Below, piece by piece: positions 21,506 to 23,453 of a stretch of 44,664 nucleotides of DNA; position 1 is the stretch's first letter; each line of letters starts with the position of its first letter. A model generated the notes under the pieces. That model ran no database searches. It saw only the letters and a program-made list of their open reading frames with translations, and was not told the origin of the DNA. Source of the stretch: Alphaproteobacteria bacterium. Lineage in GTDB: Bacteria > Pseudomonadota > Alphaproteobacteria > Micavibrionales > Micavibrionaceae. The stretch is from assembly GCA_030426925.1 (NCBI GenBank), contig JAUHXT010000006.1, positions 1 through 44,664 of the forward strand. The letters are read 5' to 3'. Position numbers and translations under genes: made by a program.

Positions 21506-21510
21506 TAAAA

Positions 21511-21537
21511 AACCCGCCTGATCCGGCGGGTTTTTCT
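21511..21537. terminator. Bidirectional rho-independent terminator between tkt and FTR1-fusion gene
   Basis: Eight-pair stem AACCCGCC/GGCGGGTT with a 6-base loop, T-run on the plus strand (TTTTT) and A-run on the left (AAAAAA), which is a T-run on the minus strand. It is 5 bases after the tkt stop and 7 before the stop of the converging gene, so it can serve both. Confidence 0.9.
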
Positions 21538-21543
21538 TTGATA

Positions 21544-23067
21544 CTAGAATTCGTATTCGAGATTGAGTTTTAGCGTTGCATCGGGTGCGGCATCGGATAT
21601 CCCCACCAGTATACCGGCATCGTATCCAATTGGCCCTATATCACCATATGCGGTCGGGCCAATACGGTGGGACTGTCCATCATAATTGGTCGTAGTGTCG
21701 CCAAAATCGCCATAGTATTCGAAACCCGGCTCAAAATTTGAACTGTATCTGTATTTTGTTTTCCATGCGACTTCATACGCTTCGTTGTCGCTGGAGTTTT
21801 CTCCGACTTCGCGGCTGATACCCAGATTGGCCAGATGTTCCCATTCCTGCAGTTTTTTGCCGAATAGCAGTTTTGCGCCTACAGAATCCGTTCCAGCGGA
21901 AAGGCTGTATTCATACCCTACCTTCAGGCCCGTATCGACAAAATATTCCCCTGTTTCCGTTAACTGAAACTTGGCTTCAATTTCTGCCTTTTTGGTTTCC
22001 AGATCGTTTCCGGCCTTATCTTCGAACTCAATAGCAGCTTCTACTGCCATAAAATCCGTGACGCCATATTCGACTTCGAAAGATTGTTCAACTTTTTCAT
22101 TGGCGGCATCATCATCGATATCGATCTGGGTTTTTGACTCGATTTCCAGTTCACCCAGTTCCACATAAGGGCTTGTTACACTTTTGCCGGCCAACGCGCT
22201 CTGCGGTGAAAAGATGAGGAACAACGCCAAAGCCGCAGTAGCTGCCCCGGCAGATACGGTCTTGCCGTTTTTATAGTCAATCATCTTGAGAGCAGAAACC
22301 AATACCATCAGCGTTATAACATAGCCAATTAGCTGAACAACACTTGGCCGTGAGGTGTAGCCGACGAGGACTGAGAGTGTTTCGCCAACAATGCCCTGCT
22401 CGCTCAGTAACCATGCACTGTCCCACACAGTTTTCTGCATGGTTTCAAACAACCCGGCAGCGCTCAGGAAGCCAATTCCCTGCGATACCATGCCTGCGAC
22501 CAGAAACATCAGCAGGATGGATGTGACGGTGAAGAATACGTTTAACGGCAGGCGTATCATACCCATGTATAGCGTCAGACCGAGAATAAACCCGCCCAGG
22601 CCGCCGATCAGGCCGCCCATAGCGATGCTTTGCATGGTTTCCCCTGCGGCCAGCATGCCATAGGAAAACAGAACAATTTCTGAACCTTCGCGCCAGACAG
22701 CCAGCGCAATAATGACGGATAATGTGATGTAGGAAGCACGTCCGCTTTTGATTGCGTCACCTACTTCCTTAAACTTCGCGCGCATTTCGTGAGCATGCTG
22801 TTTCATCCAGATGAGTGTCCATCCAATGAAGCCGGCAGCCACGAAAAGGATCGTGGCATTCATGTATTCCTGCCCCAGACCCTCACCAAATTCTGAGATC
22901 GTGTCTGTGAAATAAGCAATGACGGCCGCACCGGCGATACCGCCGATGAAGCCAAAGCTTATGGCTTTTGCCCTATTTGGCATGTCGCGTGTTGCCGCCA
23001 GCACCACTCCGACGATCAGGACAATTTCAAAAATTTCACGAAATACTATGATCGCGCTTGATAACAT
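21544..23067 (-). CDS. FTR1-family iron permease fused to a beta-barrel-like C-terminal domain
   Basis: FTR1 permeases import iron across the inner membrane. Residues 1-265 hold the permease: about seven membrane segments, with the two R-E-x-x-E iron motifs REIFE (10-14) and REGSE (126-130). The frame continues without a break: residues 262-293 read like a complete signal peptide (Met262, Lys-containing n-region, hydrophobic core, SALA-G cleavage-like site), and residues 294-507 are rich in alternating polar/hydrophobic strands with many Tyr, Glu and Asp, ending in EYEF, the aromatic C-terminus typical of outer-membrane barrels. Ordinary FTR1 proteins end near residue 265-280. An internal ATG at 22284 (Met262) could start the barrel alone but has only a weak ribosome site. 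It lies 10 bases after the cupredoxin gene, behind a Fur-like site. Confidence 0.88.
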   Translation of the reverse strand: MLSSAIIVFREIFEIVLIVGVVLAATRDMPNRAKAISFGFIGGIAGAAVIAYFTDTISEFGEGLGQEYMNATILFVAAGFIGWTLIWMKQHAHEMRAKFKEVGDAIKSGRASYITLSVIIALAVWREGSEIVLFSYGMLAAGETMQSIAMGGLIGGLGGFILGLTLYMGMIRLPLNVFFTVTSILLMFLVAGMVSQGIGFLSAAGLFETMQKTVWDSAWLLSEQGIVGETLSVLVGYTSRPSVVQLIGYVITLMVLVSALKMIDYKNGKTVSAGAATAALALFLIFSPQSALAGKSVTSPYVELGELEIESKTQIDIDDDAANEKVEQSFEVEYGVTDFMAVEAAIEFEDKAGNDLETKKAEIEAKFQLTETGEYFVDTGLKVGYEYSLSAGTDSVGAKLLFGKKLQEWEHLANLGISREVGENSSDNEAYEVAWKTKYRYSSNFEPGFEYYGDFGDTTTNYDGQSHRIGPTAYGDIGPIGYDAGILVGISDAAPDATLKLNLEYEF

Positions 23068-23077
23068 CTCAGTTCCT

Positions 23078-23413
23078 CTATTTTACGACCACTTTGCCCT
23101 GGGCAGTGTCTTCATTAAATTCGCCGAAAAACGGGTATGTGCCCGGCTCCAGCGGTCCGATGAAAACAATTCCCTGCTTGCCGCCCTTGATGATTTTTTC
23201 GCGGTTCAGTTCATGGCTTTCGAATTCTTCCGGTGTAGGGTCCTGGTTATCTATGACCAGTTTTACTTTTTGTCCGGCCGGGATTTCCACAGTATCGGGA
23301 ATAAATTTGTGGTCTTTGATGACCAGGCTGATTTCTTCTACCGCATAGGATTGCGGGACAAAGGTAAACATAGTCAGTACTGTCAGGATTGCCGTTAATA
23401 GTGTTTTTTGCAT
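23078..23413 (-). CDS. Periplasmic cupredoxin-domain protein of FTR1 iron-uptake pair
   Basis: This 111-aa protein has a signal peptide (MQKTLLTAILTVLTMFTFVPQSYA) and a cupredoxin-like domain (DHKFIPDTVEIPAGQKVKL, ESHELNREKII, PGTYPFFGEF). Such proteins pair with FTR1 permeases as copper-binding iron oxidases or electron carriers. The classical C-terminal Cys-His-Met copper loop is not obvious (no Cys or Met after the signal peptide), so metal binding would differ from plastocyanin. It is the first gene of the two-gene operon. Confidence 0.85.
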   Translation of the reverse strand: MQKTLLTAILTVLTMFTFVPQSYAVEEISLVIKDHKFIPDTVEIPAGQKVKLVIDNQDPTPEEFESHELNREKIIKGGKQGIVFIGPLEPGTYPFFGEFNEDTAQGKVVVK

Positions 23414-23438
23414 GATGCCACCCTTTTGATTTCAAAAA

Positions 23439-23453
23439 TGATAATTGTTCTCA
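23439..23453. promoter_or_regulatory. Fur-box-like operator
   Basis: TGATAAT-T-GTTCTCA is a 7-1-7 inverted-repeat match to the Fur consensus (TGATAAT-N-ATTATCA), 25 bases upstream of the cupredoxin start and between it and gapA. Iron repression of the iron-uptake pair is the natural reading; Irr or another Fur-family member is possible in alphaproteobacteria. Confidence 0.65.

Follow-up and report, generated by a model that had tools for sequence, protein, structure and literature searches.

Why an iron permease of the inner membrane should be encoded in one piece with an outer-membrane beta-barrel is the question raised by a locus in the window, the whole stretch of 44,664 nucleotides analysed here from an alphaproteobacterium of the Micavibrionaceae (contig JAUHXT010000006.1). 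Passage of ferrous iron across the outer membrane is usually ascribed to general porins. A channel that is time and again either fused to a Fur-controlled FTR1 permease or encoded beside it would name a dedicated outer-membrane partner, testable with one gene. The best reading of the gene product, based on comparative sequence evidence, is a polyprotein from which signal peptidase I splits the permease from an outer-membrane channel. We assign a probability of roughly 0.6 to the fuller proposal that this polyprotein serves iron uptake, with the permease, a LepB-cut barrel acting as a ferrous-iron channel, an iron-receiving cupredoxin and Fur control. One cleavable protein of this kind points to a route reserved for iron through the inner and the outer membrane. 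It would be an example from nature in which a transporter of the inner membrane and a barrel of the outer membrane arise from a single translation product, of relevance to the question of how an internal signal peptide engages Sec a second time and delivers its cargo to the Bam pathway.

The permease-to-barrel reading frame described in the initial annotation is present and uninterrupted, and lies on the minus strand; it starts with the ATG at 23067, has no stop inside and terminates with the stop codon at 21544–21546. The following features make up the operon:

21544–23067, minus strand: FTR1-barrel fusion reading frame, 507 amino acids, span including the stop codon; the same fusion occurs in 27 other loci.
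23073–23078, minus strand: Shine-Dalgarno sequence GAGGAA of the fusion gene.
23078–23413, minus strand: secreted cupredoxin of the FtrB/EfeO N-terminal type, first of the two operon genes (PF13473, E = 6.2e-31).
21507–21536, no strand assigned: intrinsic terminator hairpin, common to the convergent transketolase gene (fold -20.6 kcal/mol, z -5.1).

The end of the cupredoxin gene is separated from the start of the fusion by 10 bases, and thus the two are considered one operon. It is flanked by the transketolase gene on one side and by a divergent gapdh gene on the other.

The N-terminal half carries three features:

22273–23067, minus strand: FTR1/EfeU iron permease domain (PF03239), residues 1–265, with seven helices assigned from a low-confidence model and the orientation read from loop charges.
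23026–23040, minus strand: first RExxE motif, REIFE, residues 10–14, kept in all FTR1 relatives except one that ends at a contig end.
22678–22692, minus strand: second RExxE motif, REGSE, residues 126–130, with R126, E127 and E130 invariant in alignment A3.

Residues 1–259 match PF03239 with an E value of 4.8e-30 (105.3 bits against a curated cut-off of 25.3). The RExxE motifs that mark helices 1 and 4 of this family are both found, as R10–E14 and R126–E130, as had been claimed from the sequence. By family this domain is an iron permease, for which transport is predicted. Against the EfeU equivalog NF041756 it scored 130.4 bits, below the NCBIfam cut-off of 255, and a search of the PDB by sequence gave no match. 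The charge bias of the loops (positive-inside) indicates an N-out/C-in topology, with the C-terminus of FTR1 in the cytoplasm. A full-length AlphaFold2 model built from 10 alignment rows reached a pLDDT of 58 overall with a poor permease half, and the tethered or free arrangement of the two halves is unreadable from it.

Beyond the permease, the frame continues into:

22189–22269, minus strand: internal signal peptide with an AxA site, approximately residues 267–293, recognised by alignment with stand-alone barrel precursors.
22189–22197, minus strand: signal peptidase I site A291-L-A293, with the cut predicted before G294; A291 and A293 are invariant in alignment A3.
21547–22188, minus strand: 12-stranded outer-membrane beta-barrel domain, residues 294–507.

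The C-terminal 214 residues, modelled by AlphaFold2 with 17 aligned relatives, gave a confident barrel (pLDDT 93.1, pTM 0.86) of 12 antiparallel strands; the outer-membrane barrel that had been proposed for this part is thus borne out, with 12 strands in place of the suggested 8 to 10. The best match among solved structures is FapF, a polypeptide exporter (Z 22.7 over 210 residues, 2.4 Å), next to the COG4313 channel Pput2725 (4RL8; Z 21.7, rmsd 2.5, 211 of 214 residues), and these are followed by the 12-stranded porins KdgM and NanC with Z values of 18–19. Judged from the model, the relation to COG4313 is one of shared fold only. No Pfam family matched the window's barrel domain, and PF13557 (Phenol_MetA_deg) gave weak matches in three of 17 barrel members (best 3.4e-5) and none for the window's barrel; a search of the PDB by sequence found no match. 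An even number of strands, their antiparallel order, a terminal aromatic residue (EYEF) and a Sec signal peptide in the stand-alone homologues all place the barrel, by prediction, in the outer membrane. When positions were assigned as inward or outward by strand parity, from DSSP strands and hydrophobicity and not from coordinates, the family mean was 21 acidic and 9 basic inward-facing residues compared to 2 acidic and 3 basic outward-facing ones, and about 20 inward positions were acidic in more than 60% of the family members. The lumen is therefore predicted to be acidic, lined by approximately 21 acidic residues.

The first gene of the operon encodes the cupredoxin that had been named as a partner of the permease. 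Among solved structures this protein is closest to Brucella FtrB (8VUK, E = 6e-13), in which E84, E86, E93 and D119 bind an Fe2+ mimic and D118 is required for copper binding (PMC11966278). In the window's protein E84, E86 and E93 are kept and Glu stands at the place of D119, but the copper ligands D118 and H121 are replaced by Gly and Asn. The same Gly and Asn are found in most fused operons, whose cupredoxins mostly carry a GEFN motif, with DDFH kept in three. The claimed partner stands as an FtrB-like protein with its iron glutamates, without the copper ligands of FtrB, and its sequence suggests an iron-binding role and not that of a copper oxidase. The adjacency of an FtrB-type secreted cupredoxin to an FTR1 permease resembles FtrB and FtrC of the FtrABCD systems of Brucella and Bordetella, and by analogy the two proteins would act like the FtrBC pair. 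The likeness ends there: PF10634 (P19/FtrA) has no match in the whole genome, no FtrD was recognised within the operon, and FtrABCD as described in PMC11966278 names no porin component, whereas here a barrel is fused to the permease. EfeUOB is similar in its FTR1 permease with both RExxE motifs and in a cupredoxin of the EfeO N-terminal type, but differs in that the window's operon has two genes, neither of EfeO or EfeB size, and an extra barrel.

Whole-genome searches identified the fusion in 28 distinct loci, including that of the window, from at least seven GTDB-level family codes. An architecture that had been considered only in the window's genome is hence real but not confined to it, and apparently widespread and recurrent. 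The fusion was found in the window's family (G010, G046, G006 and G059), order (G090, G091 and G092) and class (G465, G368, G150 and G209), and elsewhere in the phylum in eleven genomes of one family (f194). Named loci include Micavibrio sp. DHS20C02, Micavibrio sp. UBA5703 and a Rhodospirillaceae MAG in which the frame ends at a contig end. Judged by what these relatives are called, the organism of the window belongs near Micavibrio in the Alphaproteobacteria. A single-sequence search of genome contigs gave no match and a search with the barrel alignment gave 16 loci; viral contigs gave none. One of the fusions (L109, JACPXM010000008.1) lies in a MAG labelled Candidatus Omnitrophota and may be mis-binned or transferred.

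Stand-alone barrels beside FTR1, which the initial annotation had proposed to look for together with the fusion, were found as well. The separate genes occur in the orders cupredoxin-barrel-FTR1 (G068, G077, G080, G089 and G396), cupredoxin-FTR1-barrel (G204, G212, G758 and G783) and FTR1-cupredoxin-barrel (G446 and G369), and cupredoxin and barrel occur without an adjoining FTR1 in G079, G338 and G717. Where the barrel is a separate neighbour of FTR1 it carries its own signal peptide. The well-supported branches of the barrel tree require at least six switches of the fused state, and a single clade of all fusions was rejected (AU p 1.2e-5, barrel tree, quick tree); at least seven changes are forced in the FTR1 tree. 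These changes may be gains or losses alike.

The Fur-like site claimed upstream of the operon is weak in the window itself:

23434–23452, minus strand: weak Fur-box-like site GAGAACAATTATCATTTTT, 13 of 19 positions (shuffle p 0.055).

No match to the E. coli Fur consensus, three mismatches allowed, was found within the window. Other operons have strong boxes in the orthologous position: sites of at least 15/19 precede 20 of 26 fused operons, compared to 26 of 1060 random stretches of equal length from the same loci. Such boxes were also found upstream of 4/12 adjacent-gene operons, 2/20 cupredoxin-FTR1 operons without a barrel, and seven of 31 stand-alone barrels (nine of 31 at a threshold of 14/19). 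Boxes of at least 15/19 are found upstream of stand-alone barrel genes that lie away from FTR1 (L181, L183, L184, L186, L076, L086 and L161), and thus the barrel may be iron-regulated by itself.

According to the mechanism that we propose, the permease would insert with its C-terminus in the cytoplasm, and the internal signal peptide would re-enter the Sec translocon and carry the barrel to the periplasm. LepB would cleave after A293, and the released barrel would reach the outer membrane by the Bam pathway, where it would act as a cation channel that admits ferrous iron along its approximately 21 acidic lining residues. The cupredoxin would take over the iron in the periplasm, and FTR1 would move it inward. 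Through the fusion, the two membrane components would be supplied 1:1, with Fur in control of both. The link to iron is supported by the FTR1 partner, the FtrB-like cupredoxin with its glutamates, the Fur boxes and the predicted acidic lumen, and it is reasonable to infer that the barrel conducts Fe2+.

A different cargo is the strongest competitor: polyprotein and cleavage would be as proposed, but the barrel would pass an iron chelate, a hydrophobic compound or another metal, or serve a structural or sensing function. For Pput2725, lateral diffusion of hydrophobic molecules, and not of ions, has been proposed (PMC4493636), and this mechanism is the main rival for the function of a barrel whose closest folds are the COG4313 channel and an exporter of polypeptides. 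Many members of the barrel family do not adjoin FTR1, some FTR1 operons lack a barrel, and some barrels have little net charge (+2 in one paralogue from G092). Against this, the barrel is repeatedly fused or adjacent to FTR1 and an iron cupredoxin, Fur boxes accompany it even at stand-alone loci, and a role in hydrophobic uptake is at odds with its FTR1 partner and with a lumen predicted to be acidic. We consider another cargo unlikely, though deserving of serious attention. A second, stand-alone barrel paralogue was also observed in each of two genomes that carry the fusion (L084 in G092, the paralogue of little net charge, and L085 in G046).

The remaining alternatives concern the joint. Residues 271–286 are hydrophobic and are followed by A291-L-A293|G, the h-region and small residues at -3 and -1 of a signal peptidase I substrate. 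Since loop charges indicate an N-out/C-in permease, an extra hydrophobic stretch would return the chain to the periplasm. This topology, and the single chain encoded, would also permit an uncut protein in which the stretch forms the eighth membrane-spanning segment as an anchor, so that the permease remains tethered to the barrel as a bridge across the periplasm. When the 28 fused loci were aligned on the cleavage site, however, position -1 was Ala in all of them (entropy 0 bits), -3 was Ala in 26 with Thr and Ser in the other two (0.44 bits) and -6 was Pro in 20 (1.26 bits), while entropies lay between 2.1 and 3.6 bits in the remaining columns from -30 to -2. An anchor has no need of these residues, and in the model about 13 residues separate the site from the first strand, too few to span the periplasm; an uncut fusion is thus very improbable. 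In alignment, the ordinary signal peptides of stand-alone barrel genes fall on the joint of the fused proteins, which corroborates the internal signal peptide with a SALA-G site that had been read from the window.

Separate synthesis of the barrel from a start codon inside the FTR1 gene, the other product suggested at first, finds an ATG at 22284 (M262), 31 residues before the cleavage site. This ATG is not conserved and lacks a Shine-Dalgarno motif; a candidate start with a Shine-Dalgarno motif occurs in only 3/28 fused loci, and G368 has no ATG, GTG or TTG in the 14–40 residues before the site, whereas stand-alone barrel genes often have both start codon and Shine-Dalgarno sequence. We regard an internal start as hardly credible. 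An artificial joining of two genes, by faulty sequencing or assembly or an overlooked stop, for which one might cite adjacent separate genes such as those of G758 with one TAA in the joint match, has a negligible chance, because the same open fusion in 28 independent loci from different genomes and families is far beyond chance. Cleavage of a single polypeptide by signal peptidase, as first proposed, is favoured on comparative grounds by the barrel model, the invariant site, the signal peptides of stand-alone barrels and the separate barrel-FTR1 neighbours.

Two genomes were ruled out as carriers of the fusion, the genes being separate and adjacent. In G758 (L178) the FTR1 and barrel genes are in fusion order with the single TAA reported inside the joint match, possibly an intermediate between the separate and fused states. 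G490 includes two FTR1-barrel neighbourhoods about 20 kb apart (L179 and L180), with the barrel match split over two frames.

Profile searches of the window's genome (2.14 Mb, 99.84% complete) gave no match for the TonB receptor barrel or plug domain, nor for FeoB_C, P19, Nramp or SBP_bac_6; in the absence of FeoB_C, matches to FeoB_N were taken for ordinary GTPases. The plug domain is absent in all five Micavibrio-family fusion genomes tested. It is also absent in many members of this family without the fusion, and fusion genomes in other families have TonB receptors. From the gene content of this genome, the operon is a candidate for the main iron importer of this organism, with other routes possible, and likewise for the main iron route of Micavibrio-type bacteria without TonB receptors. 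Tentatively, and at slightly less than even odds, the fusion may define an importer class in which signal peptidase splits one polyprotein into a permease and an outer-membrane channel dedicated to Fe2+, and by which such bacteria would take up most of their iron.

Fold and permease are already known; the combination of FTR1 and barrel is absent from the literature searched. In agreement with the first impression that no such system had been described, that literature, with most subscription papers outside the search, held no description of an FTR1-barrel fusion and no bacterial polyprotein that joins an inner-membrane permease to an outer-membrane barrel. FbcH of Bradyrhizobium, a cytochrome b/c1 polyprotein, also joins an inner-membrane protein to an exported partner through a signal peptide cut by signal peptidase, but that partner is a periplasmic-facing cytochrome of the same inner-membrane complex. 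The 12-stranded barrel is shared with the COG4313/Phenol_MetA_deg channels. A functional parallel, a porin feeding FTR1, is found in Synechocystis, where cFTR1 resides in the inner membrane and selectivity for iron has been proposed for the outer-membrane porin Slr1908 (PMC8707739, PMC11221513). The cyanobacterial genes are separate, however, their SLH/OprB porins belong to another family, and no fusion is described in these two papers.

The joint looks modular from sequence comparison. In G191 (L158, 4475–5600) and G299 (L166), FTR1 is joined through a similar signal-peptide-like stretch, ending in ARAAE and AMAAE respectively, to a different small domain of about 75 residues with the motif CWxSYEEFExxxPHxDLxRCPED, to which no confident Pfam family could be assigned. 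In a congener, G465, the barrel is found in this place.
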